Virus record (IMG/VR): IMGVR_UViG_3300035698_030975
Location: 1-62,510 of that record
Direction: 5' to 3' (one strand)
Length of the DNA: 62,510 bases
From: a virus
Part shown: positions 2,436 through 61,345 of the stretch, in pieces
Position numbering within the stretch: position 1 is the first letter of the stretch
Layout: each line of letters starts with the position of its first letter
Made by a program: the position numbers and the translations under genes
The notes under the pieces: model-generated
What the model was told of the DNA's origin: nothing
The model's input: the letters and a program-made list of their open reading frames with translations, nothing else
The model's database searches: none

Positions 2436-3002
2436 ATGATATCCGGCCGAATTAATCAAGAGAATCGTGGAGCAATACCTTCAAGTTCCAGCCTTCAACA
2501 GATGGGACTGGGAAAGCTAGGTAGCGATGCTATATGTTTTAAACGAAAATTTCGTTGGCAATTTCGCATACCAGAAATATCTGTAGAGGGAATAAATGCT
2601 TTAATGCCTGAAAAATCTGCGCGTCCTAGCATTAGTTTCAAAGAAATAGAAGTTCAGCACATAACTGAAACTATTTATTTTGCTGGAAAACCTGAGTGGA
2701 AACCAGTCAATCTCACCCTTTATGACACAAAAACAAAAAAAAATCCCATTTTTAAATGGCTCAAGGAACAATATAATCCTTGTGATGGAGTGTGGAAAGC
2801 ACCCTTGCCTGACACTTGGAAGAAGGCTCGGGCATATTTAGAGATGTATGATGGGTGTGGAAATATATTAGAGAAATGGGTTTTCGAAAACGTATGGCCG
2901 AATGCCATAGAATGGGGAAGTTTAGACATGGGGGACTCTGAGTACGCAACAGTAGATCTTACTTTACGTTATGACCGAGCATTTATTGAAGAAGAATGTT
3001 AA
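2436..3002 (+). CDS. T4 gp19-like tail tube protein (copy 2)
   Basis: This is a second tail tube paralogue of 188 residues. It shares with copy 1 the K-R-K-F-R-W motif, Y-D-G-C-G-N-I-L-E-K-W, the W-P-x-A-x-x-(F/W)-G-(D/S)-L-D strand and a terminal L-T-L-R-Y. Its N-terminus has about 20 extra residues. A GAGG Shine-Dalgarno lies 5 nt before the ATG. Two diverged tubes may form different tail segments, such as the main tube and the tip or connector; that is inference. Confidence 0.85.
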   Translation: MISGRINQENRGAIPSSSSLQQMGLGKLGSDAICFKRKFRWQFRIPEISVEGINALMPEKSARPSISFKEIEVQHITETIYFAGKPEWKPVNLTLYDTKTKKNPIFKWLKEQYNPCDGVWKAPLPDTWKKARAYLEMYDGCGNILEKWVFENVWPNAIEWGSLDMGDSEYATVDLTLRYDRAFIEEEC

Positions 3003-3911: not shown

Positions 3912-4115
3912 ATGAAAGACCTTTCTGTGGCGATACATGCCTTGACTACTATATTAGAGAACCCTTTGATAGAAAAAGGATATAAACAATTACAAAATTT
4001 TTATTTAACAGAAGGTTTGAAGCACAAAGCAGATTCCATAAATCACTTAATAGAAAACAAATTCAATGTTGAAAATCCACTTACTAACCCAAAACAACGA
4101 GAAAATAATAGCTAA
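3912..4115 (+). CDS. Small hypothetical protein
   Basis: A 67-residue, mostly helical protein of unknown function. It is divergent from the sigma factor gene and overlaps the next gene by 50 bases. No clear Shine-Dalgarno is visible before the ATG, so it may be only weakly expressed or not a gene. Confidence 0.4.
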   Translation: MKDLSVAIHALTTILENPLIEKGYKQLQNFYLTEGLKHKADSINHLIENKFNVENPLTNPKQRENNS

Positions 4116-15101: not shown

Positions 15102-18100
15102 CTAGATTACCTCACACGCCCCGCCACCGCACGCAACGGTTTGAAGAATTTCTGTTACGTCTTCATCTTCTTTGAGTTGTGTGTAATCTACATCAACACA
15201 TTCGCGTTTAATATCCATCCAGTGTTTCCAACAATGAACGTGTTTCATTAAATAGGTGCATTTTCTAACATCCGAATCATAATATCTTTCGGCAAATTGT
15301 TTTACGCGCCTAACCCAATCAGTTTTCATTTTCCACTCATTGTGGTCTTTTTCCCATTGTCTATGGTCTTCTAATGTAGACTCTCCGTTAGGCTGTTCTG
15401 GTTCAACCAATGGATTGCTACGTTCCAAAACCACATCACACGCCACCCATAAATCATCATACGCATGGAATCCATCAACTATTAATCCACTAGCCATCAT
15501 AGAACCATCACCATATTGTTTAAGTATTTCTCGGGGCGTTAAAACATTTACCATGGGAGCTTGGGGATAATCTAAATCTCCAGAAGCAGACAAAAGAGTA
15601 ATGCCTGCAAAGTATTTTTTATTCTGATAGATGAAATCAGTTGCTTCTTCCCACTCATGTTCTCTTACGTTAATTGTGTTACTAACATTATGGGTTAACC
15701 ATTCTTGGGTGCATTTTTCTTTTCGTTTTCCTTGTGTTACCCAATTTTTTTGAGTAACAAGAACGAGCTTTAATAATTCTATTGCCGAAAGATCGTTTTT
15801 AGTTTTTGCCCCATCTGGAACTTCTACACAAAATGTAACTACATCATCGCTTTCGTTAGCACTCCAAACGCATTTTTCTGTTGCAATAGGATTTTTGCTT
15901 TTATAAAACTGAAATACGGGTTCTAATTGATTTGCTTGACTTCGACGAAAATATCTTCTTGCATGATGGGGGTGAATTCCACTAGCACTGCCCAAAACAC
16001 AACTGGAAGTTCCGCTAGGCTTAATACAGGTGCATCGGGCTGCTGGATTTATTCCTAATTTAGATGCCATCCATTCGTTGGTTTTAATCACCAAACGAGC
16101 CATTTTTTTCTGCATTTGGGGGTCAAATAATATTTCTGGATTATCCATCATTCCAGTAATACTGACGCCTAGCAAAGATTCTCGTCTAATAATTTTCTCT
16201 GTGGTTTGTCCCAAATACTCAAAATCAGTATATCCCGCTTGAAGAGTTCCCACTATAGCCGCAGCCCGTACAGCTAAAGCTAAATCTTCTTCACACTTAA
16301 CGCGACGACCATTAACTTCTGACAAATTACATACAGCCCATCCGGATTTTCCTGTTTCTGGATCTACTGGCCATGTAGAGATTTCGCCACAATTGCCAGT
16401 AACAATACCATTGGCAATCATGGTGTTGGTTTTATATTGCTTTAAGCAAAAAACATCATCATTGCCAACATAATCAATGCTTCTAATACGAGTTGAATAT
16501 TTTTCTATTTTTTTACACTGAACACCTCTTTGCTTTAAATAAACATTAGCAATGTCTTCTTTCCTTCCCAAAATTCCAATCTGTTCTTTAAAACGAATAA
16601 AATTTGGTCTATTTATAATTAATTCATAATTAGGTTTGCACCAATATTTTTTTACGCCCTCATTGCCATCTGGCAAAGATCTAAATTCGCCAGGGCGTCT
16701 AAAATAAACCCCACTAATTATGCCAAAATTAGTAAGTAATGTTTGAATTTCTTGCAGAAGTATTTCGTTGGATTGAGTAAGACGATAAGATAAAGTTGAT
16801 TTTGTGTGTTGTTTGCGCTCTTTATGTTGAACGCTTCCATCTCCAAAAAACATCCCTTGTAAATAACCAATTACAAACTCCTCCGATCCATTCCAAACAC
16901 ATTCTGGAAGGTTTTTCTTAATCGTAGATGGATTGTCAATAAGCAAAATCTCTTTTAACAATCTATACAGGCGTCTTCCTCCTATTCTTTTTTTATCACA
17001 ATCCCCACTCCAATCATTTTCAATATTTTCATTAAAATGTTGTTTGTCTAGAATTTTGATTTCAGAATTAACAATTTTTTTGATATAATCCAACTGCTCG
17101 AAATCATCTTGCCACATGTCAATAAACGCCGTTCCTGCTCCCGCTCTCGAAAATGTTCCATCAGATGTAATTAATCCAAGAATTAGACCTTGTTCGTAAG
17201 TACCACGCTCTCCAAAAGCTCCCTTTCCAGATTGTAAATAAATAACGTCACCTTCAGATAATTCATCTAATCGCTTTCTACCATTTGGAGTTGGAAAAAT
17301 ATGATTTTCAGTAGCTTTAATGGAATGCCCATGTTTAGTTCTAATTTCAAAAATGGGAACATTTTTTTGCGTTAATTTGGCATTAGAGGCTTCGACAAAT
17401 TCTATTCCCAACTCCGCGCATATTTTTTCTTTCCCAATTCTTTTATCAGCCAACAAAATATTAGAACTTTTTTGTAAATTTTCTATCTTTATTAATCCAA
17501 GATTTGTTGCAATACGGGTGTCTCTATGAAGGCACGGATTACATACGGCCTCTGTACTGTCTGTAAAATAAAAACCCGGTTCTCCGTATTGCTTCAAAAC
17601 CTCAATAAATTTAGTAAAATCTTCTTTTGTAAGATCATCTTTCAATAATACTACAGAGTTGTTGGATCTTGCTCGTTGTGGATTTTCATCGCGCCAATTA
17701 CCTGTTTTGGCATTCATCATTTCTTCATCATCTTTGCTAAACAAAGCAATTGTCGCAGATCGACGAACACCGCCTGAAAGAACGGCATCTGATGTATGCA
17801 TTGTGATGTCATATGCATCAATTGGAGATAATCTAGATTGTCCTTTTCCAACACAATCGTCTAATAGTTTTCTAATGATCTCTAATGATCTTTTTAATGG
17901 CTCTGGTCCTGGGGCTTTTCCTACGCCAGAAGAAACAGGAAATCCCTTGGGACGAATAACAGAATAATCAAAAACCACTTTATTGCCTTTCCAATCGGCA
18001 TAATTTGGATGAGGAATATAGGTGGCAAGAAGAACTCCTAAAGAATCAGCCCAACCTTCAATTGTATCGGGGATTACAAATATTTTTTCCGCAGCATCTA

Positions 18101-19442
18101 GGTTTTTATCTTTATTAAGTTTTAATTCTTTGTGGAATTTTGGAATTTTATTCACATGATGTTTTTGAACGCTAAACCCTGCACCACATCCACATAATAA
18201 AAGCCAAAAACACTCTTGGAAGAAACGAATTCTATCACAAAAAGTCATTGTACAATTTCCAGTAACTAATCCATTAGGCATAATAAATGATTGATCGTCA
18301 TCTACTTCCAGGCACCAAACTTCATCATAAATAGGTTCATCATCTATTTCTGATACAAAAAAATGAGACGCTGTTTTTCCTAATGAATTAAAAATTCTAA
18401 ACCTAATTGTATAGGGTCTGGTTCCAAAATTAGTTATTTCATTAGTAAAATCTTTTTCTGAAACAATATAAACTCCCGCTATTGGAAAGCAGTCTCGAAT
18501 AAATTTTATATGTTCTTTTTCGCTTGATTGAATGGTGACAAATAAATTTTTAGAAGGATATTTTGATTTTTTATGTGTACTTCTATTAACCTCTCCATCT
18601 GCATCTAAATAACCACGAACAAAAGCTCTAATAAGTCTTGGATCGTCTTTGTTGGGATCAGGTGATTTTTTCAAATAAGTTCCTGTATATGCCATTATAT
18701 CGCCTTGCAGAGAATTTGAAGCACTAGTTTTGAAACCAAGTTCTTCAAACCGATATGCAAATTTTCTGCTGCTACCGCAAAGACGTATTGCAGAATATTT
18801 TGGAGTTCCATCAGAATCTTGAATATTAGTTCCATCGCCATAAATAAGTCCATAAGCCCAATATAATCTTTCGTCCGGTTGTGCTTCATCATAATCAAAA
18901 TCATTAAAAATATCTGGGGCGTTTTGAAGATGGTCTCCCACATCAAGTCCTTGGCGAAATTCCCCGTGCTTTAAAAGCCAACGATGATCTTTTGTAGCCC
19001 AAACTTCACATTCGGCATTATTTCTTGTTATTTTATGTCGATATAACCAATCCTTTCCATAATCTCTAACTATTGCTCTTTTCCAATTGCCTTTATGAGT
19101 CAAAACCTCAACAATATCACCATCTTTAAAATCTTGAAAAGTTTTTACCCCTTGTCGGGTAATAAAAGATGTAGATTTAGATAAACAATTGTACATTCTC
19201 GCATGTTTCTTTTCGATAGGTACTCCGCCAAATTGAAGTGCCCTTTGAGACCCCAATGCCCTTTTTTGCTTTACAAGATCAAAGGCCCACTCAATATGTT
19301 CGGCAACATTTGGGTAGCGCCGTAGGTGCATTTGTTTGACTCTATCAACAGCTTCATTCCATGTTTCTCTGCGTTTTTCTTCACTATTATAACGGGCATA
19401 CTTTGAATAATAGGTATAATCTTGGAGAGCTTTAATCGACAT
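15102..19442 (-). CDS. Adenosylcobalamin-dependent ribonucleotide reductase (class II) with two inteins
   Basis: This enzyme reduces ribonucleoside triphosphates to deoxy forms for phage DNA synthesis, using B12. The 1446-residue precursor contains two inteins (residues 86-396 and 637-1017); removal leaves about 754 residues, close to monomeric Lactobacillus-type enzymes (about 739). Extein signatures are R-M-Y-N|C (redox Cys), N-P|C-G-E-I (thiyl-radical Cys), W-A-V-C-N-L-S-E-V-N (partner Cys) and the C-terminal A-C-G-G-G-A-C-E-V-I shuttle pair. AAGGA precedes the ATG. Each intein interrupts the chain just before a catalytic cysteine, so activity depends on splicing. Confidence 0.93.
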   Translation of the reverse strand: MSIKALQDYTYYSKYARYNSEEKRRETWNEAVDRVKQMHLRRYPNVAEHIEWAFDLVKQKRALGSQRALQFGGVPIEKKHARMYNCLSKSTSFITRQGVKTFQDFKDGDIVEVLTHKGNWKRAIVRDYGKDWLYRHKITRNNAECEVWATKDHRWLLKHGEFRQGLDVGDHLQNAPDIFNDFDYDEAQPDERLYWAYGLIYGDGTNIQDSDGTPKYSAIRLCGSSRKFAYRFEELGFKTSASNSLQGDIMAYTGTYLKKSPDPNKDDPRLIRAFVRGYLDADGEVNRSTHKKSKYPSKNLFVTIQSSEKEHIKFIRDCFPIAGVYIVSEKDFTNEITNFGTRPYTIRFRIFNSLGKTASHFFVSEIDDEPIYDEVWCLEVDDDQSFIMPNGLVTGNCTMTFCDRIRFFQECFWLLLCGCGAGFSVQKHHVNKIPKFHKELKLNKDKNLDAAEKIFVIPDTIEGWADSLGVLLATYIPHPNYADWKGNKVVFDYSVIRPKGFPVSSGVGKAPGPEPLKRSLEIIRKLLDDCVGKGQSRLSPIDAYDITMHTSDAVLSGGVRRSATIALFSKDDEEMMNAKTGNWRDENPQRARSNNSVVLLKDDLTKEDFTKFIEVLKQYGEPGFYFTDSTEAVCNPCLHRDTRIATNLGLIKIENLQKSSNILLADKRIGKEKICAELGIEFVEASNAKLTQKNVPIFEIRTKHGHSIKATENHIFPTPNGRKRLDELSEGDVIYLQSGKGAFGERGTYEQGLILGLITSDGTFSRAGAGTAFIDMWQDDFEQLDYIKKIVNSEIKILDKQHFNENIENDWSGDCDKKRIGGRRLYRLLKEILLIDNPSTIKKNLPECVWNGSEEFVIGYLQGMFFGDGSVQHKERKQHTKSTLSYRLTQSNEILLQEIQTLLTNFGIISGVYFRRPGEFRSLPDGNEGVKKYWCKPNYELIINRPNFIRFKEQIGILGRKEDIANVYLKQRGVQCKKIEKYSTRIRSIDYVGNDDVFCLKQYKTNTMIANGIVTGNCGEISTWPVDPETGKSGWAVCNLSEVNGRRVKCEEDLALAVRAAAIVGTLQAGYTDFEYLGQTTEKIIRRESLLGVSITGMMDNPEILFDPQMQKKMARLVIKTNEWMASKLGINPAARCTCIKPSGTSSCVLGSASGIHPHHARRYFRRSQANQLEPVFQFYKSKNPIATEKCVWSANESDDVVTFCVEVPDGAKTKNDLSAIELLKLVLVTQKNWVTQGKRKEKCTQEWLTHNVSNTINVREHEWEEATDFIYQNKKYFAGITLLSASGDLDYPQAPMVNVLTPREILKQYGDGSMMASGLIVDGFHAYDDLWVACDVVLERSNPLVEPEQPNGESTLEDHRQWEKDHNEWKMKTDWVRRVKQFAERYYDSDVRKCTYLMKHVHCWKHWMDIKRECVDVDYTQLKEDEDVTEILQTVACGGGACEVI
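16392..17534 (-). other. Intein 2 in ribonucleotide reductase (381 aa)
   Basis: The element starts at Cys637 (C-L-H-R-D-T-R-I-A-T) and ends I-V-T-G-N before Cys1018, the catalytic radical cysteine in N-P-C-G-E-I. Block B appears as H-S-I-K-A-T-E-N-H. Two LAGLIDADG-type motifs are visible (L-I-L-G-L-I-T-S-D-G near 755 and L-Q-G-M-F-F-G-D-G near 865). Like intein 1 it ends G-N rather than H-N. Confidence 0.88.
18255..19187 (-). other. Intein 1 in ribonucleotide reductase (311 aa)
   Basis: The element begins with Cys86 (C-L-S-K-S-T-S-F) and ends V-T-G-N before Cys397 of the extein. It has the splicing block with W-A-T-K-D-H-R-W (block B-like, with His) and a terminal G-N/C junction. A LAGLIDADG homing endonuclease is embedded (L-I-Y-G-D-G near 200 and G-Y-L-D-A-D-G near 280). 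The penultimate residue is Gly, not the usual His, so splicing chemistry may be of the His-less kind. Confidence 0.88.
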
Positions 19443-43689: not shown

Positions 43690-45906
43690 TCAATTCCTCA
43701 TACGTATATCCGACATAATTCCTAGAGCAAAAGGATAGGGTAATGATGGCTCTTGGTATTCTCCTTGCCAAATCAAAATTCCTTCATCATTTTTTCTCGC
43801 TAAATTAGGACATTTTTCTAACTTATTTTCATAAATTGACACAGAATTTCTAGTTAAAGATTTATCAGAAAACTCTACTTCACCTATAACCACTGTTATT
43901 TTAGGATCTTTAATTACTCGACAGCATTCGCCTATCAATTCCATTTTCATTTCTCGCTCTAATTTAGCTAATCCTTCAATTGTAAAAGAGTGTTTTGCTC
44001 CTTTAATGCGAGAAAATCCTCTTTGTAATTCTCTCTCTATAGCGATATTTGCTAAATGAGGTTCAATTTCTCCGCCAGTTTCTCTCCATAAATCGCGGAA
44101 AATATTAGTCCCATTAGCAAATTGTGGATTCTTTGAAAAATGAAGGATGTCTCGAAGTTCTAAAACTGTTAGCGAGTCACAATCAAAAATATCATCCCTG
44201 TTAATTCTTCCAAGTAATTGTAATATGTTTATAACTGGACCTATTTCTCTAAAACCTTTTTTGAAAGAAAGATCGAGTCCAAATTCCACACAAGTTGTAG
44301 CAACTAAAATAAAAGTTTCATTTCGTTTAATTTTCTCTATTACTTCCTTAAGAATTATTTCTCGGTGTTCGGGAGTTAAACAAGTAGAAAGATGTAATAC
44401 TCTTTCTGATCCCAATTCATCTTTAAGAGCAAGAGCTATATTTGCAGTTGTTTTAATTGTATTAAAAACAGAAATTAAAGGCCCTTGGTCAAGAGATACT
44501 TCTTTGCATAATAAATTAACAACTCCTTTTAGATTTAAAGGGGTTGAATTATATTCAACTATAACCCTTTTTCTTTCTAGTTGTTTTGCTTTGTTAACAA
44601 ATTCTTCCGAAATTAAAGAAATTGGTTTTCCACTAAATCCGCTTACCTGTTTGATTCTCTTATTTTCCCAAAAGCGATGAAGAGATCCAGAAGCAAAAGT
44701 AACTTTACATCCCAATTCGGTTGTTAGAAACTCTAATCGTTGCAAGGCAAGAGGCCATAAATTCATAGGTATCGAAGCATGACATTCGTCTATAACTATG
44801 TGTGATCCAGCAAGTTGATAGTATTTTCTTAATTTGCTTGGATGATTAGAAAAAAGTGTTTCAAAAAATTGTACCGCTGTTGTCACAACAATAGGAGATG
44901 ACCATGTTTTTGAAAAAGTTTTAGCCAAATTTTGACCATTAACTTCTTTTTCTTTGTTAAATTTAAGCTGATGGTGATCTTCGGCAACTATAGGGTTTAA
45001 TTCCGAATCTTCATTAATTTGTAGACCTTCTCTAAGTTTCCTGACGTGTTGCGAAATAATTGTAATGTAAGGAGCTACACAAATCAATTTTCGAGGATGA
45101 GAAGATAAGCCATATGCTGTTGTGGCAAAAGTTTTTCCTAATCCAACCAAAGCGCCACAAAACGTATAAGGCGTCGATTCTGCTTGACGACAAGTAGAAT
45201 AAAGTTCATTTCTTAAATCTCCTCTTGGTCCTGGGGATGTTAGTGTTTCGAGATGCCCATCTAAATTAGCTAAAAATTTTGGATCAAGAGGGACTCCATC
45301 GGGAGGAGAAATGCCATAATGTTCAGATGTATTCCAATAATCTGCATCGGTCAAACAGGAAAATGCTAAACGAAGTAAATCAGAAGAAAATTTGTCAAAT
45401 TCGGGTTTGGGAGGAAGATCTAAATCAACACATTCTCGATGAATTGTTAGTAATTCATCGAGAATGCTATCTGTATATTCTGCCGTTGTTCCTTGAAAAG
45501 CCATATAAGGACAACGATCAATGATAAGATCGAAAATTCTATATTTTATTTTTGAACGCGTCCAATTTGACATGCCTATGTGGTGTCCAAAAACCATTAA
45601 AGCAGATAGATTATCTCCTTCTCTTAAAAAAGCTGCCGAACCTGCATCTGGGTGTATAGGCATCTTCCCTGCTATTTTTCCTTTTAAAACATCTTGAGAA
45701 GGAGGAGCTAATTTTCCTAAATCATGAAGAATAACAGAACGAATAACAATCTGTTCTAATTGTACAAAAAGTTCTTCTCTTAAATAAGGACGAATTATCT
45801 CCAAATTATGTAATGCTCTATTCCGCGAACCAATCACATGGTCTTCATATAATTGATGGGGTATAAGTTTATTTTTTACCAGTTTTTCTGAATGAGCAAT
45901 ATACAT
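43690..45906 (-). CDS. cas3: Cas3 HD nuclease-helicase (type I-C)
   Basis: Cas3 is recruited by the target-bound Cascade complex and unwinds and degrades the DNA. The 738-residue protein carries the HD domain (H61-D62 in L-H-D-L-G-K, H-P-D-A-G, G-H-H-I), then helicase motifs: Walker A G-A-L-V-G-L-G-K-T (251-259), D-E-C-H box (373-376) and motif VI Q-L-L-G-R-I-N-R. It lies downstream of the array rather than first in the operon. A CRISPR-repeat-like hairpin stands 20 bases before its ATG; the ribosome site itself is weak. Confidence 0.93.
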   Translation of the reverse strand: MYIAHSEKLVKNKLIPHQLYEDHVIGSRNRALHNLEIIRPYLREELFVQLEQIVIRSVILHDLGKLAPPSQDVLKGKIAGKMPIHPDAGSAAFLREGDNLSALMVFGHHIGMSNWTRSKIKYRIFDLIIDRCPYMAFQGTTAEYTDSILDELLTIHRECVDLDLPPKPEFDKFSSDLLRLAFSCLTDADYWNTSEHYGISPPDGVPLDPKFLANLDGHLETLTSPGPRGDLRNELYSTCRQAESTPYTFCGALVGLGKTFATTAYGLSSHPRKLICVAPYITIISQHVRKLREGLQINEDSELNPIVAEDHHQLKFNKEKEVNGQNLAKTFSKTWSSPIVVTTAVQFFETLFSNHPSKLRKYYQLAGSHIVIDECHASIPMNLWPLALQRLEFLTTELGCKVTFASGSLHRFWENKRIKQVSGFSGKPISLISEEFVNKAKQLERKRVIVEYNSTPLNLKGVVNLLCKEVSLDQGPLISVFNTIKTTANIALALKDELGSERVLHLSTCLTPEHREIILKEVIEKIKRNETFILVATTCVEFGLDLSFKKGFREIGPVINILQLLGRINRDDIFDCDSLTVLELRDILHFSKNPQFANGTNIFRDLWRETGGEIEPHLANIAIERELQRGFSRIKGAKHSFTIEGLAKLEREMKMELIGECCRVIKDPKITVVIGEVEFSDKSLTRNSVSIYENKLEKCPNLARKNDEGILIWQGEYQEPSLPYPFALGIMSDIRMRN

Positions 45907-45926: not shown

Positions 45927-45951
45927 TTTTAATTAGCTCTGCAAAACAGAG
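45927..45951 (-). repeat. CRISPR-repeat-like hairpin in the cas3 leader
   Basis: A 25-bp version of the repeat core (TTTTAATTAGCTCTG, short A-loop, CAGAG) stands 20 bases upstream of the cas3 start codon. A further decayed repeat piece (TTTCAACAGAGGTTGATAT) lies at 45969-45987. It may be an old array end, or a leader hairpin recognised by Cas5. It shares a T-for-C change with the orphan element at 28523. Confidence 0.75.
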
Positions 45952-46016
45952 ATTCGTCACTCAGTTGATTTCAACAGAGGTTGATATGTGAGATTCCGGC
46001 ACGCCACCGCCGTGGT

Positions 46017-47618
46017 GTTTCAATTAGCTCTGCAAAAAACAGAGGTTGTTATACTGTCGCCATTCGTGTCCGCGATGGGGCTGGTAGCCGTTTCAATTAG
46101 CTCTGTAAAAAACAGAGGTTGTTATACACGCTTGCTTCAGCACAAGTTGGCTGGTGGTGAGACGTTTCAATTAGCTCTGTTCAATTAGCTCTGTTCAATT
46201 AGCTCTGTAAAAACAGAGGTTGTTATTTTCAACGGTCGAGTCTACGACGACGGCTACTTACGCCGGTTTCAATTAGCTCTGTAAAAAACAGAGGTTGTTA
46301 TTGGTTTTTCGGTGCTGTTGCAGACCACCAAAGCTCAAGTTTCAATTAGCTCTGTAAAAAACAGAGGTTGTTATTTCCCAGGCATGTGGCGGTTACTGCC
46401 TTTAATGTCGAATGTTTCAATTAGCTCTGTAAAAAACAGAGGTTGTTATATGACTTGCACAGGGTAGCTGTGTGATTTTTACCCCCGTTTCAATTAGCTC
46501 TGTAAAAAACAGAGGTTGTTATAAGTGTAGAATAACAAACAAAACAAAGGAGAAGAATGTTTCAATTAGCTCTGTAAAAAACAGAAGTTGTTATTCAAAC
46601 CTATCCTGCTATATTCACGCCGAAAATGCGATTGTTTCAATTAGCTCTGTAAAAAACAGAGGTTGTTATGTCCACCTTGTCGGTGCTTTTGCCTTTGTTT
46701 ATCAAAGTTTCAATTAGCTCTGTAAAAAACAGAGGTTGTTATTATAAAACGGCTGGTGCGGTAACCTTCGCGTAATGGTTTCAATTAGCTCTGTAAAAAA
46801 CAGAGGTTGTTATATTTGCGAAGCAACCGTTACCAGCATCCACCACACGGGCGTTTCAATTAGCTCTGTAAAAAACAGAGGTTGTTATCGGGACGAAAAA
46901 ACAAACGATTTCGGGCTATTATGAGTTTCAATTAGCTCTGTAAAAAACAGAGGTTGTTATAACGGCAACTGTTGTTCACCACCTGGGGAAAGATGCAAGC
47001 GTTTCAATTAGCTCTGTAAAAAACAGAGGTTGTTATGTTTCGGGTGTGCCTTCGTCAGTGGTTCGGACATGGTTTCAATTAGCTCTGTAAAAAACAGAGG
47101 TTGTTATGCGGGTAATTTCGTAGTTGCCATCGACAACCCCCTGTTAGTTTCAATTAGCTCTGTAAAAAACAGAGGTTGTTATCAGAAATTGCGGCGTGGC
47201 TTGGCTTGCGTGGGTACTAGTTTCAATTAGCTCTGTAAAAAACAGAGGTTGTTATAAACGCGAAGCTGGGGACACTGAGAGGGTATAGAGAGTTTCAATT
47301 AGCTCTGTAAAAAACAGAGGTTGTTATGTTGGTGGATTGGAAATCGGCGAGTCTGCCCAACGATCGTTTCAATTAGCTCTGTAAAAAACAGAGGTTGTTA
47401 TAAAAAATGGATGCCCGAGACTTGGATTTTTCATCGAGTTTCAATTAGCTCTGTAAAAAACAGAGGTTGTTATGCTTGGCAAAGCGGCTGCCTTCGTAAA
47501 TGTATCGCTCGTTTCAATTAGCTCTGTAAAAAACAGAGGTTGTTATGCCGTCAAAGACGGCAAGGTTTCAAAAGGGGTTTCAGTTTCAATTAGCTCTGTA
47601 AAAAACAGAGGTTGTTAT
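46017..47618 (-). CRISPR. CRISPR array: 22 repeats of 36 bp, 21 spacers
   Basis: On the plus strand each repeat begins GTTTCAATTAGCTCTG and ends ACAGAGGTTGTTAT; read on the minus strand it ends in ATTGAAAC, the usual type I handle, and forms a CTCTGT/ACAGAG hairpin. Transcription is therefore on the minus strand, like the cas genes. Spacers are 35-40 bp. Repeat 1 (46017) and repeat 8 (46559) have single changes, and repeat 3 (46164-46226) is stretched by tandem copies of its first half. These variants lie at the leader-distal end, as expected for old repeats. Many spacers are more GC-rich than the phage. Confidence 0.98.
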
Positions 47619-47798
47619 AGCGTTGGTTATAACTCCTTACCAAAAAAGAGTTTACGACTGACAATTCGAGCGGTCCTACAAAATCTTACTAATTTGTTAA
47701 ATTGTAGAATTGCCATTCTTACAAATCCTTTAATGATAAGGAGTTACAACCGCGAGAGGTCGCAGTGATTTTTGCGTCACTGGACCTCTCGCAAAGAG
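47619..47798 (-). promoter_or_regulatory. CRISPR leader region with terminator-like hairpin
   Basis: The 180 bp between cas7 and the first transcribed repeat hold a strong hairpin next to the cas7 stop (GCGAGAGGTC 47752-47761 with GACCTCTCGC 47783-47792, plus an inner 6-bp CAGTGA/TCACTG stem), which probably ends or processes the cas mRNA. A 15-bp inverted repeat (47625-47639 and 47737-47751, one mismatch) brackets the AT-rich leader. No clear promoter hexamers were identified. Confidence 0.6.
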
Positions 47799-48783: not shown

Positions 48784-49200
48784 TTATCCTTTTGGTTCGG
48801 GAATTTCTACTTCAATTTCATTTTCTTCCTTTTTTTCGTCTTTGGCGGTGTTAGCGGGTTTATAACTATAACCAGTTGCCAAGAGAATTATTTCTTGAGG
48901 ATTTAATTGCGTGGGATATTCTGCATTAGGAACAAGCACATTTAATCGTTCCACAAGTTCTCGATATACCTTACGTCCTATTGGTGATCTATTTGTGCTC
49001 TCTGCCCAATTTAGATATGTGTGGAATGAAGCAAGAAAACTTCGATATGCTTGCAATGGATTGATATAAGCCATTTTAGTGTGACGCATGCCAATCAATA
49101 TAAAAGGAGGTTTTCTATTGCCAGTGTTTTTATAGTAATTTTTCTGTATGGAGTCGGCAATAGAAAAAAGCCGACCTAAACAATAGCTCCAATTATCCAT
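48784..49200 (-). CDS. cas11c: Cas11c small subunit from internal start in cas8c
   Basis: In type I-C systems the small subunit is known to be made from an internal start in cas8c. Here AAGGAG (49207-49212) lies exactly 6 nt before an in-frame ATG (49198-49200) encoding M-D-N-W-S-Y-C-L-G-R-L-F, giving 138 residues of helical protein. Both the ribosome site and length support it. Confidence 0.8.
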   Translation of the reverse strand: MDNWSYCLGRLFSIADSIQKNYYKNTGNRKPPFILIGMRHTKMAYINPLQAYRSFLASFHTYLNWAESTNRSPIGRKVYRELVERLNVLVPNAEYPTQLNPQEIILLATGYSYKPANTAKDEKKEENEIEVEIPEPKG

Positions 49201-50601
49201 GAAAGTCTCCTTACGAATTTGTTGTTTGTGAAGAAGAATGTTTCCCAAGGCGACCAAATAACTTAGTTCACTAGGGTTTGTGACAAAACGAGAAACGCAG
49301 GTGGTTCGCATGTGAGCTACATTGTAGGCATAAAATTTAATCATCATTTCTACAACAGATTTATTTCCCAAAAATAACTCGTAAACATCGCCCATACTAA
49401 ATCTGGGAATGGTGTTTGCTTCAAACGATGTGCCATTTCTAAATGACCAAACGTTATTCAAACATCTAAAAAGTTTCTGAACATTTGGCGCTCGTAGTCG
49501 CTCTTCGCCTAAATTATTATGAATGCCATCTTGCCATTCTTTTAATTGTTTTATAAGGGTTTCTGATGAAACGCTTTGTGAATAAACCACAGAATGATTG
49601 GAGCCATGAAGTCCTTCGCGTATCAAAATAATTTTGCCCGGAGGAATATTGCCTCCCTGTTGGTTAAGAGCAGCAAGAAGATTATGAACTTCAATATCCC
49701 AATCTTCTTCTCCTTCACAATAGCCTTGGATAACTTTTTCTTGAAAAGGAAGTAGCGTACTTACAACTCGATATTTTCTACCTTTTTTATTGGACTTTCT
49801 TTTTATGTTTTTGGGCGGAAAATCATAAGACCACCACAACCCTCCTTCTTTGCCGAATATGTTTTCTTCGCTAAGAATAAAATTAACAACTTTGGCTAAT
49901 TTTTGTTTGGTTTGCTCTCCAACTTTAAAGGCGTCGGTGCCATTTAATCCAAACCGACAAAACGATTTTTCAGCTTTATTTCGCGTATAAAGACGTATTT
50001 GTCCAGAATAAGTCCTAGTAGCAAAATTCGTTTCTTCATATCCCGCAAGTGGATTTCCAAAACAATCTTTTTCTTCTTCTTCTGTATTTTCTCCTTTAAA
50101 AAGAACCTCATTCAACGCACGCAAAGTAATTTCACTTTGAACGGGATTTGGAAAAGAATAAGGATTGTGAACTTCTAAGGCAACATATGCTTTAGCTTTT
50201 GTTTTCTCTTTTAAAATTTCTATAAATTCTTCTATATTTATTTTGCTGATTCGTTCAGTTAAATTTTGTAAAGCCACAAACTCATCACTAGTTCCCATTT
50301 TTGCCAATATGCAAGTTCGCTCAAAGGTTTTGGTGATTTTGGTGGCGGACTTTTTGCCCTTTGGATCAAATAAAAATCCAAGACCATACTCCCAATTGCT
50401 TTGTTTATAATGACGAAGTTCAACGGGATCAATTTCCTCTACCGATTCAATTTGTCCTTCGTCATTAACTTTAACTTCGAATGTTTTCGCTTTCTTCGGG
50501 TCAGGATATTTACATAGTCTATAGTGCCACGATTCCTCATCCTCGGGAATTATTCCCCAAGATTCCAAACTATTAGCGATAGACATCATTTCATTTAGCA
50601 T
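48784..50601 (-). CDS. cas8c: Cas8c large subunit (Csd1)
   Basis: Large subunit of type I-C Cascade, involved in PAM recognition and Cas3 recruitment. The 605-residue length and the C-terminal signature (C-L-G-R-L-F-S-I-A-D-S-I-Q, then A-Y-R-S-F-L-A-S-F) fit Csd1. Its ATG overlaps the cas5 stop by one base (TAATG). An internal ribosome site before residue 468 would also produce Cas11c. A Lys/Glu-rich disordered tail ends the protein. Confidence 0.92.
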   Translation of the reverse strand: MLNEMMSIANSLESWGIIPEDEESWHYRLCKYPDPKKAKTFEVKVNDEGQIESVEEIDPVELRHYKQSNWEYGLGFLFDPKGKKSATKITKTFERTCILAKMGTSDEFVALQNLTERISKINIEEFIEILKEKTKAKAYVALEVHNPYSFPNPVQSEITLRALNEVLFKGENTEEEEKDCFGNPLAGYEETNFATRTYSGQIRLYTRNKAEKSFCRFGLNGTDAFKVGEQTKQKLAKVVNFILSEENIFGKEGGLWWSYDFPPKNIKRKSNKKGRKYRVVSTLLPFQEKVIQGYCEGEEDWDIEVHNLLAALNQQGGNIPPGKIILIREGLHGSNHSVVYSQSVSSETLIKQLKEWQDGIHNNLGEERLRAPNVQKLFRCLNNVWSFRNGTSFEANTIPRFSMGDVYELFLGNKSVVEMMIKFYAYNVAHMRTTCVSRFVTNPSELSYLVALGNILLHKQQIRKETFMDNWSYCLGRLFSIADSIQKNYYKNTGNRKPPFILIGMRHTKMAYINPLQAYRSFLASFHTYLNWAESTNRSPIGRKVYRELVERLNVLVPNAEYPTQLNPQEIILLATGYSYKPANTAKDEKKEENEIEVEIPEPKG

Positions 50602-56597: not shown

Positions 56598-56628
56598 AAA
56601 AAAGCCCATTTCCCTTGGGGAAATGGGC
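56598..56628 (-). terminator. Rho-independent terminator after the release factor gene
   Basis: An 11-bp stem (GCCCATTTCCC/GGGAAATGGGC) with loop TTG and a T-run on the minus strand. The same stem recurs at 57458-57489. Confidence 0.92.
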
Positions 56629-56637
56629 TCATTAAAA

Positions 56638-57394
56638 TTATTCGCGCAACAAATCAAACCTTCCCTTCATTACCTGTTTGATCTGTTTTGTTTTGGTTTT
56701 TAAAATATGATCTACAACTCTATTGTTCATAAAATTGTATGTTCGTCGCTTATCAGAGCGATTTCCGCCAGCACGTTGTTTTTTGCGGTTCTCGCTGTAA
56801 TTTTCGTGTTCTAACTGTTGATGGTGTTCATTCACCCTTGTTGTTAGAATTCTCAAAGCCTCACGACGATTTACGTGTTGATCTCTTCCGTTAATAAATA
56901 CTTGCAACCCAGTTGGCTTGTGTTTCATCCTTACGGCAGAATCAGTCACGTTTTGATGCTGACCGCCTTTTCCATGACCACCTTGAGTTTTCACCTCAAG
57001 TTCGTCTTCTTTGAGTGGTTTTAAAGAACGTTCTGGTGGAAGGGGCAATACTACCACGCTAATTGTGCTGGTGTGCTTGCGCCCCTTAGTTTCAGTCGGC
57101 GGAATTCTTTGGACACAATGTTTTCCGCTTTCATGGCGAAACACATCCCAAACATTTTTGCCTTTGAATTTCAGAACAACATGCCCATTAGATGTGTGTA
57201 AAATCTCTTTCTTAAGATTTTTAAACTGGGCGTATTTGATGTAGGCGGCTGCTAGATCATGAACAAATAACTTACTGTCATCGCCACCTTCTCCGAATTG
57301 AATTTCAACAATAAGTTCTCTTGTCTTACTAAAGACACTCCTGCCCCTTCAACTTTGCATAATCTGCCCTCCTTTGTTTCATTTGAGTTTTCAT
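56638..57394 (-). CDS. RF1-like release factor requiring a +1 frameshift at UAG
   Basis: A short class I release factor. The zero frame starts at ATG 57394 (AAGGAG 5 nt upstream) and after 21 codons reaches CTT TAG (57329-57334). The +1 frame continues from AGT (57330) for 230 codons: V-E-I-Q-F-G-E-G-G-D-D, R-H-E-S-G-K-H-C-V-Q-R, the P-P-T tripeptide (near 98, RF1-like P-x-T), K-H-T-S and G-G-Q (about 143-145). That frame has no start codon before its conserved part. AGGAG lies 3 nt before CTT, exactly as in the prfB autoregulation site, but with UAG for UGA. The usual N-terminal domain 1 is missing. Confidence 0.8.
57329..57343 (-). promoter_or_regulatory. Candidate programmed +1 frameshift site (AGGAG-TGT-CTT-TAG)
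   Basis: The minus strand reads CAGGAG, TGT, CTT, TAG. An internal Shine-Dalgarno-like AGGAG is placed 3 nt before the slippery CTT and an in-frame stop, the same geometry as AGGGGG-TAT-CTT-TGA in prfB. Slow termination at UAG when release factor is scarce would favour the shift, giving autoregulation. Confidence 0.8.
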
Positions 57395-57457
57395 GACTTC
57401 TCCTTGGTTAAAATAATATGTACTATATTATATCCCAAAAATCGGTGTTTGTAAAGC

Positions 57458-57489
57458 AAAAAAAGCCCATTTCCCTTCGGGAAATGGGC
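57458..57489 (-). terminator. Rho-independent terminator after hsp20
   Basis: An 11-bp stem, the same as at 56604-56628, with loop TTC and seven T residues on the minus strand. Confidence 0.92.
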
Positions 57490-57501
57490 TTGCTATGAGC
57501 G

Positions 57502-60042: not shown

Positions 60043-60126
60043 GTGCGCCGGGACGGAATTGAACCGCCAAAGCCGTTAGGCGACAGATTTACAATCTGCG
60101 AGACTCACCAATGTCCAGCCGACGCA
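60043..60126 (-). tRNA. tRNA-Tyr (GTA)
   Basis: The minus strand folds into a class II cloverleaf: acceptor TGCGTCG with CGGCGCA, anticodon loop with GTA (CAGATT-GTA-AATCTG), a long variable arm (class II) and a normal T arm (GTTCAATTC). CCA is not encoded. The discriminator base would be C, unusual for Tyr. Confidence 0.88.
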
Positions 60127-60297
60127 TTATTTCATTTTTCTAATTCTTTCCACACCAGAACAATAAATGTGACCAAATACTTTTTTAGATGCCTCTCTTT
60201 TTGTTTTTGCTTCAACGATCTCCTTACATTTCCATTCAGGTTCGCCTTGATTGTATTCTGCTCGGTAATTCTTTTCTTCACAAATCCAAGTTGGCAT
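60127..60297 (-). CDS. Small hypothetical protein between tRNAs
   Basis: A 56-residue basic protein from ATG 60297 (AAGGAAGATTCC upstream). It contains C-E-E-K-N-Y-R-A-E-Y and a basic end. Its TAA directly abuts the tRNA-Tyr 5' end, so tRNA processing would cut right at the stop codon. Confidence 0.5.
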   Translation of the reverse strand: MPTWICEEKNYRAEYNQGEPEWKCKEIVEAKTKREASKKVFGHIYCSGVERIRKMK

Positions 60298-60319
60298 GGA
60301 ATCTTCCTTTTTATTTAAG

Positions 60320-60404
60320 TGCCGCAAACTGGATTCGAACCAGCACGCCCATAACGGACACGGGATTTTAAATCCCGGATGTCTACCAATTCCATCACTG
60401 CGGC
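60320..60404 (-). tRNA. tRNA-Leu (TAA)
   Basis: Class II cloverleaf: acceptor GCCGCAG with TTGCGGC, anticodon stem CGGGA/TCCCG and loop TTTAAAA (anticodon TAA), variable arm, T loop TTCGAAT and discriminator A. It reads UUA and UUG. Confidence 0.92.
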
Positions 60405-60418
60405 AAATTACAGATGAC

Positions 60419-61051
60419 CTACGTGGTTAATTGTTTAATTCTTTTTTTTATCTCTTGAAAAACTTCTACAACGTATTTTTTAGTAGAAACCAAATCTGAT
60501 ACAACTGCAAGTTCTATTTGTCTTTCCTCCGCTAATTTTTTCTTTTCTAAATCTCTTTGTTGTATGTTGTCTAATTTTTTTTGTCCATAAATCGGTTTAA
60601 AATGAACTATGCCATTCCACTCAATTGCAAAATTAATACTTGGTATAGCAATGTCTACTTCATATCCACCCAACAACTTTTTATCATTAGGAATGATTTC
60701 TAAATTAGGAAACTCCTCTTTTATCATTTCAAAAAGCATAATCTCCATTTTAGACCGACGACTTTTTCTTCGTTGTGTGTTGTTATAAGAAGCAGAACAT
60801 GAATTGTTGCAAAATACATTCCCTATTTTAGAGCGTTTGTATTGTCCAAGTTTTCTGTCCACTTCTTTTCCACACCAACCACAAGGCTTGTGAACAACCT
60901 TGTGTTCGTAATTATATTCATAATTGCATTTTTTGCTGCAAAACTCATGTTTTATATTCCACCCATCTCTTATCAATATAGCAGCGGGTCTTCTAGATTC
61001 CCATCTTCTAAATTTTTTTCCACAATGGTCACATATTACTTCGTGTTTCAT
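60419..61051 (-). CDS. Zinc-finger VSR/DUF559-like nuclease in the tRNA cluster
   Basis: A 210-residue protein from ATG 61051. The N-terminal half has three Cys-rich zinc modules (C-D-H-C-G, C-S-K-K-C, C-G-W-C-G, C-N-N-S-C). The C-terminal half has a restriction-endonuclease-like core: G-Y-E-V-D-I-A-I-P, A-I-E-W-N-G-I-V-H and Q-Q-R-D-L-E-K-K, as in VSR-type homing nucleases. It sits between tRNA genes, a common site for phage homing endonucleases. Confidence 0.72.
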   Translation of the reverse strand: MKHEVICDHCGKKFRRWESRRPAAILIRDGWNIKHEFCSKKCNYEYNYEHKVVHKPCGWCGKEVDRKLGQYKRSKIGNVFCNNSCSASYNNTQRRKSRRSKMEIMLFEMIKEEFPNLEIIPNDKKLLGGYEVDIAIPSINFAIEWNGIVHFKPIYGQKKLDNIQQRDLEKKKLAEERQIELAVVSDLVSTKKYVVEVFQEIKKRIKQLTT

Positions 61052-61103
61052 ACATTTATATAGTATGATTCGAAGTGTTTCGACTCCTTTTTTAAAAACA
61101 AAG

Positions 61104-61190
61104 TGCGGATGACTGGATTCGAACCAGTACGGGCGCTTACGTCCCACGAAATTCTCGGTCTCGCATGTCTACCTATTCCATCACACCCGC
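61104..61190 (-). tRNA. tRNA-Leu (GAG), C at position 33
   Basis: Class II cloverleaf: acceptor GCGGGTG/CATCCGC, discriminator A, anticodon stem CGAGA/TTTCG. The loop is CCGAGAA, so the anticodon is GAG and position 33 is C rather than the near-universal U. It would read CUU and CUC. Confidence 0.8.
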
Positions 61191-61194
61191 ATAG

Positions 61195-61267
61195 TAGCCC
61201 AGGTCGGATTCGAACCGACATACATCTGATCCTAAATCAGATCGCTTTGCCTTTTGCGTACCAGGCC
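61195..61267 (-). tRNA. Class I tRNA with Leu anticodon TAG
   Basis: Short 73-nt cloverleaf: acceptor GGCCTGG/CTGGGCT (with several G-U pairs, including the first), anticodon stem TCTGA/TCAGA with loop TTTAGGA (anticodon TAG), a 5-nt variable loop and T arm GTCGG-TTCGAAT-CCGAC, discriminator A. By codon it reads CUA (Leu), but bacterial Leu tRNAs are normally class II with long variable arms. The charged amino acid is therefore uncertain. Confidence 0.8.
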
Positions 61268-61271
61268 AAAG

Positions 61272-61345
61272 TAGTGAGGGTCGGAGTTGAACCGACAGAC
61301 ATCAAGTTTTGAACTTGATCGCTTTACCTATTAGCGTACCTCACC
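61272..61345 (-). tRNA. Class I tRNA with Leu anticodon CAA
   Basis: A 74-nt cloverleaf closely similar to its neighbour: acceptor GGTGAGG/CCTCACT with G1-U72, anticodon stem TCAAG/CTTGA with loop TTCAAAA (anticodon CAA, UUG codon), short variable loop and T arm GTCGG-TTCAACT-CCGAC, discriminator A. The two look like tandem duplicates with changed anticodons. Confidence 0.8.

Follow-up and report, generated by a model that had tools for sequence, protein, structure and literature searches.

How is a release factor gene read when its start codon lies in one frame and its conserved sequence in another, and what would the ribosome sense on the way? The question is raised by a gene on the minus strand, complement(57394..56638), of IMG/VR virus record IMGVR_UViG_3300035698_030975; positions 1 to 62,510 of that record are the stretch of DNA analyzed here and are called the window. 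The gene has a 21-codon zero frame that ends in CAGGAG-TGT-CTT-TAG, followed by a factor resembling the bacterial release factor RF1 in the +1 frame. Judging from the sequence and its relatives, we think it quite probable that this is a working gene for an RF1-derived phage factor lacking domain 1, that synthesis of the factor depends on a programmed +1 frameshift, and that the site serves as a shifty-stop sensor of termination capacity of the type known from prfB.

The Shift Signal

All of the elements described here are on the minus strand. The leader ORF has a Shine-Dalgarno (SD) sequence, AAGGAG, at 57400..57405, begins with ATG at 57394-57392 and encodes MKTQMKQRRADYAKLKGQECL in 21 codons (57332..57394). 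An internal SD-like sequence, CAGGAG (57338..57343; anti-SD duplex -7.4 kcal/mol), is located 3 nt 5' of the slippery codon CTT (57332..57334), and the spacer codon between them, TGT (57335..57337), would occupy the E site. The zero-frame sensor stop, TAG, is at 57329..57331, and a P-site tRNA-Leu would re-pair at UUU, 57333-57331. The +1 frame (56638..57330), with AGT at 57330 as its first codon and TAA at 56640-56638 as its stop, encodes 230 amino acids that Pfam, NCBIfam and a structure model assign to domains 2-4 of an RF1-like factor. The joined product would have 251 residues, MKTQMKQRRADYAKLKGQECL-SKTRELIVEIQFGEGGDD... The signal in E. coli prfB, which encodes RF2, is AGGGGG-TAT-CTT-TGA-C, and in the window the SD-like element, the spacer codon, the CTT and the stop are spaced in the same way; the base after its TAG (+4) is T and not the C that is favored in the family described below.

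Re-reading the minus strand confirmed what the first-pass annotation had described, namely an AAGGAG start, 21 codons, AGGAG-TGT-CTT-TAG and a continuation in the +1 frame that has no ATG, GTG or TTG before the GEGGDD core. A stop located six codons 5' of the shift closes that frame. The annotation's interpretation, a prfB-style +1 shifty stop with prfB spacing, is likewise supported by the signal and by the CTT-stop in the relatives. As a check on chance, 17 CTT-stop sites in the window have a +1 ORF of 100 codons or more, and among these only the release factor site combines an SD-like element with a short upstream +1 frame.

The gene could be read without any frameshift if ribosomes used a rare start codon of the +1 frame, such as ATT, for internal initiation. 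ATT codons are present in the +1 frame of the window, and in seven of the 28 family genes with N-terminal-type sites this frame includes a TTG or GTG at some point. However, the other 21 have no common start codon there, the eight genes with a site inside domain 2 would be left unexplained, and internal initiation would not conserve the CTT, the C at +4 or the phase. We therefore consider it highly improbable, and recoding of the window gene from the zero to the +1 frame appears, from its sequence, near certain.

The Encoded Protein

Three NCBIfam profiles score the window product at 229 bits (RF1), 138.5 bits (RF2) and 58.5 bits (PrfH). The RF1 match falls short of the 400 bits of the full-length RF1 equivalog and begins at position 104 of 347, which means that domain 1 is absent, as the first-pass annotation had proposed. 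Pfam matches are PCRF (4e-25) and RF-1 (5e-22). The structure model (pLDDT 89) superimposes on domains 2-4 of ribosome-bound RF1 with TM scores of 0.85-0.88, and structure comparison and sequence search give identities of 36-40% to RF1 chains vs 22-30% to RF2. The codon-recognition tripeptide, located by alignment with solved RF1 chains and relatives, is PPT (57094..57102, minus strand), which is of the RF1 type PxT, and the catalytic GGQ (56959..56967, minus strand) is invariant in a 16-row alignment. Besides GGQ, the protein keeps the RF1-pattern residues QR-I-PPT (the Q of QR) and HTS (the T of HTS). In a maximum-likelihood tree all of the family factors form one clade on the RF1 side (100/99). 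The annotation's assignment to the RF1 type thus holds for residues, fold and phylogeny.

Three other identities were considered and rejected. RF2 does not fit, because the tripeptide is PPT rather than SPF and the RF2 score is the lower of the two. PrfH (RFH) does not fit either: its score is far below the curated cut-off of 166.65 bits, and the gene directly upstream is an HSP20-like gene and not rtcB. Finally, homology to the eRF1/aRF1 type of factor found in Mimivirus was not observed, since both fold and profile are those of bacterial RF1.

A Proposed Mechanism

We propose, by analogy with prfB, that a ribosome would read the 21-codon leader and pause with UAG in the A site and the P-site tRNA-Leu paired to CUU, while the internal SD-like sequence pairs with 16S rRNA. 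If a factor read the UAG fast, a 21-residue peptide would be released; if termination at UAG were slow, the tRNA-Leu would move from CUU to UUU, allowing the release factor to be made. Because a slip at the early UAG is needed to read the gene, synthesis of the factor should be confined to conditions of slow termination at that codon, and the quantity sensed by the window gene would be spare termination capacity at UAG. The slip of tRNA-Leu from CUU to UUU is established from prfB. The widest mutational work on the CUU site used UAG as the next codon and found CUU_U to be by far the most efficient, with efficient +1 shifting at CUU followed by UAG (reviewed in PMC5009743), and the CUU UAG C of Mimivirus has been shown to shift in E. 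coli (PMC3521657). The window signal should, therefore, work on a bacterial ribosome.

We infer slippage in vivo, codon specificity and feedback at the window gene. As the product looks like an RF1-type factor, which would read UAA and UAG, the loop should be one of negative feedback that also senses host RF1. Such feedback would require a product able to read UAG, an ability that its motif suggests.

Relatives of the Window Gene

Relatives were collected by scanning viral contigs, phages from GenBank and genome contigs, and each upstream region was read. Including the window, 36 distinct genes have a total of 44 in-phase CTT-stop +1 sites; with gene L242 there are 37 genes and 45 sites. The carriers are the window, huge-phage contigs and five genomes of Candidatus Obscuribacterales. 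Many of the family contigs are 100-600 kb long, and one gene (L007) is in LR756511, a 595-kb phage record. A search with PF03462 found one such factor per record in 19 of 19 records, with a few shift-split genes giving two pieces.

The codon before the stop is CTT in 36 of the 36 tabulated genes vs five of 536 (0.9%) ordinary gene ends on the contigs that carry them. The sensed stops at the 45 sites are UGA (23), UAG (19) and UAA (3), and the spacer codon is TGT at 21 of 44 sites. Because the genes are related and CTT was used in recognizing the sites, p-values overstate independence and serve as guides only for three further features: the +4 base is C at 33 of 44 sites vs a background of 18% (p=2e-16), SD-like pairing is strong at 55% of the sites vs 7% 5' of ordinary in-frame CTT codons (p=1.4e-9), and UAA is avoided, being used at three of 45 sites vs 45% of gene stops (p=2e-8). 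UAA is the stop read by both RF1 and RF2. A clear SD-like element is absent at 19 of the 44 sites. Across the family, the CTT-stop and its phase are conserved, the identity of the stop as TAG is not, and a strong SD-like element is present at about half of the sites.

These results also bear on whether the frame change in the window is a sequencing or assembly error, or a sign of gene decay. The record is a metagenomic contig without reads, and the first-pass annotation had raised a one-base assembly error at 57329-57334. However, retention of the CTT-stop device across 37 diverged genes, 36 of them other than the window gene and five of these on bacterial chromosomes, rules out such an error, and purifying selection acts on the +1 frame (see below). 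We regard error or decay as barely credible.

A recoded genetic code was rejected as the cause. The window ends its genes with TAA (40), TGA (17) and TAG (10), ten relatives also use all three stops, and no stop reassignment clearly raises coding density in any of these 11. A subclade (L008-L011 and L129), mostly from 600-735-kb phage records, displays another pattern; TGA seems to be read as sense, and its factors have an ATG start and no CTT-stop site. Two other relatives, L018 and L126, also start directly at ATG without the device, and in L118 (around 3990) the shift site is a variant with GTT TGA in place of CTT TGA.

Scans of viral contigs with the motif alone recovered the release factor genes L006, L016 and the new L242; most of the matches were chance ones, out of frame inside ordinary genes. 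Many matches in phage-collection records (OR84xxxx, OR85xxxx and MT83xxxx) looked, from their titles only, like stray bacterial RF1 or RF2 and were not used.

Arrangement of the Sites

The sites occur in three architectures. In the first, as in the window, a single site precedes domain 2. In the second, which is present in eight genes, two in-phase tandem sites precede domain 2 and are separated by an open segment of 11-23 codons. The first and second stops of these genes are UAG/UAG in L006 and L017, UGA/UGA in L013 and L117, UAG/UGA in L014 and L130, UAA/UGA in L007 and UAA/UAG in L016. In the third, also present in eight genes (L012, L029, L030, L031, L033, L036, L127 and L136), the one site is inside domain 2; conserved residues on either side of it are in different frames, so a change of frame is demanded.

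We found no description of tandem sites for prfB in the literature searched. The tandem sites of this huge-phage and bacterial RF1-derived family might be serial stop sensors that act multiplicatively or as an AND gate, in which UAG plus UGA would read a shortage of both RF1 and RF2, UAG plus UAG would sharpen a single response, and the sensed stop would be free to change between UAG and UGA. We put this forward tentatively, as a reading with almost, if not quite, an even chance of being correct.

L242 combines a CTT TAG shift with an in-frame UGA in domain 2. In-frame UGA codons without a change of frame are also present in the release factor genes L003 (about 2955-3000) and L019 (about 3965-4000), whose phages use the standard code, and in all three genes the sequence reads TGA AGA G. 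It is possible that these are readthrough sensors; a sensor scheme based on readthrough of an in-frame stop has been reported as unknown in bacteria. The RF1-type gene L120 has an in-frame TAG in domain 2 (AAT TAG CTG, around 4109), and TAG seems to end genes there too. ARAGORN predicts a tRNA-Pyl-like gene with a CUA anticodon, which would read UAG, at L016:8594-8671 (minus strand); the release factor sites of the same phage have UAA and UAG.

The Bacterial Branch

Five genomes in or near Candidatus Obscuribacterales (L131-L135) have a third, RF1-like gene without domain 1, in addition to full-length RF1 (5/5) and RF2 (found in three). By eye, these genes are located among chromosomal-looking, non-viral genes, and the L131 and L133 regions are syntenic. 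CTT TAG C is at the same place in all five copies, without a clear SD-like element, across about 40% protein divergence. Between L131 and L133, dN is 0.033 and dS is 0.85; on these sequences, the +1 frame is under purifying selection. A survey of 53 genomes of the order found the full gene in the five and a contig-end fragment in a sixth.

Which Stop Is Sensed

The same device in the relatives would sense UGA, rarely UAA, or two stops in series. On the protein tree there are at least 11 changes of stop at the last site and at least 10 switches between UGA and UAR, while the RF1-type recognition motif is mostly unchanged. UGA and UAG are sensed equally often among relatives that share the PPT/QR motif, and no correlation between sensed stop and tripeptide was seen across the family. 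Even close pairs differ, for example L114 (UAA) and L115 (UAG), or L007 (UAA) and L014 (UAG) at their first sites. The release factors of L114 and L115 are nearly identical (dN 0.014), and their leaders are mostly different, with TAA replaced by TAG and the CTT-stop and phase kept, as would be predicted if selection acts on the device and not on the leader. The first-pass annotation held that the sensed codon matches the specificity of the factor. This is true of the window and of the five bacterial copies; it fails as a rule for the family, given the UGA sites with the same motif and the switches between close pairs. With UGA sites in genes of RF1-type motif, feedback cannot hold everywhere unless those factors also read UGA; if they do not, their device would report host RF2.

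One alternative is a generic sensor that responds to an overall shortage of release factors (host RF1, RF2 or both), regardless of the stop that a lineage has, with no autoregulatory loop of the phage protein. The repeated switching under an unchanged motif agrees with this, as do tandem sites that mix UAG with UGA (L014, L130) or UAA with UGA (L007). However, the strong avoidance of UAA is what factor-specific sensing would predict, and the bacterial branch has UAG in five of five genomes, while the window, L006 and L017 use UAG only. We find this alternative plausible but lean against it. Another is that the phage factors are omnipotent and read UAG, UAA and UGA, so that all sites would be autoregulatory and it would be neutral whether UAG or UGA is used. 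Parts of the family depart from RF1 in the recognition loop, with HTS changed to QTS in many and PHL, PDN, PPN, PSN or PKG in some, and each phage record searched has one such factor; the window, though, retains the canonical RF1 residues QR, PPT and HTS, and we consider omnipotence unlikely. For the window gene itself we continue to favor a sensor of termination at UAG.

Surroundings of the Gene

The release factor gene forms a unit of its own, bounded by two strong terminator-like hairpins, each with a 13-bp stem and a T run, on the minus strand at 57463..57491 (upstream of the unit, after the HSP20-like gene) and 56602..56630 (downstream). A near-consensus sigma-70-like promoter, TTTACA-17-TATAAT (57427..57455, minus strand), has 11 of 12 consensus matches and is a pattern match only.

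Release factor genes are often within or beside phage tRNA arrays, as in L002, L004, L019, L123, L136 and the window (60043-61345). The window array includes a tRNA-Leu(GAG) of the CUU-reading type (61103..61190, minus strand; ARAGORN), which L004 carries as well. In prfB it is a tRNA of this type that slips (PMC13245932), and a link between the window tRNA and the frameshift is only suggested.

The window has some other features. At 45927-47624, a CRISPR array with about 22 repeats (GTTTCAATTAGCTCTGTAAAAAACAGAGGTTGTTAT) adjoins genes that resemble Cas3 and, weakly, Csd1, complement(43690..45906) and complement(48784..50601), which makes a type I-C-like system on a virus contig. The class II ribonucleotide reductase encoded by complement(15102..19442) contains a LAGLIDADG intein.

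Comparison with Known Systems

Programmed frameshifting was previously held to regulate only RF2. Among 8,164 prfB shift sites the stop is TGA in 98.6%, TAA in 1.4% and TAG in none; for prfA, the same survey, which covered bacterial genomes, found no such programmed shift (PMC12421855). The authors of PRFect note that all of the +1 CUU-stop cases in RECODE are prfB (PMC10885494), according to a major review no RF1 counterpart of the in-frame-stop scheme, acting at UAG, is known, and a huge-phage paper reports RF1 and RF2 genes and does not mention frameshifts. In the open-license literature searched, we found no description of an RF1-type frameshift sensor in phages. What is new here is a UAG shift in an RF1-type gene, present in many phages and as a bacterial chromosomal gene, in some cases with tandem sites. 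The family makes it testable why RF2, and not RF1, is normally autoregulated, and it provides natural sensors for UAG, UGA or both.

The device resembles prfB in its SD-like element, single spacer codon, CTT, early in-frame stop and factor in the +1 frame, and the family shares the preference for C at +4, which is favored but not obligatory. It differs from prfB in that the product is RF1-derived and lacks domain 1, that sites can be tandem or inside domain 2, and that the stop is UAG in the window and variable in the relatives, whereas the surveyed prfB sites have TGA or TAA only (PMC12421855). The product resembles RF1 in its PxT tripeptide, GGQ, domains 2-4 and best fold and profile match; unlike the window factor, prfA has domain 1 and reportedly no programmed shift (PMC12421855). 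PrfH (RFH), whose gene is associated with rtcB and whose tripeptide is distinct (PMC1586002), is likewise a class-I factor without domain 1; the window factor differs from it in having RF1-type recognition residues and a profile score below the cut-off.

The nearest precedent is the class-I release factor of Mimivirus, in which R726 has a +1 shift at CUU UAG C, and its Megavirus counterpart mg280, with CUU UAA C (PMC3521657). These, too, are viral release factor genes in which two stops are bypassed in one gene and the stop differs between relatives. However, the Mimivirus protein is an eRF1-like factor of a eukaryotic virus and not a bacterial RF1, and its second event is UGA readthrough, whereas here the second event is usually another shift, although L242 combines a shift with an in-frame UGA. 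The family described here shows convergence with the Mimivirus release factor.
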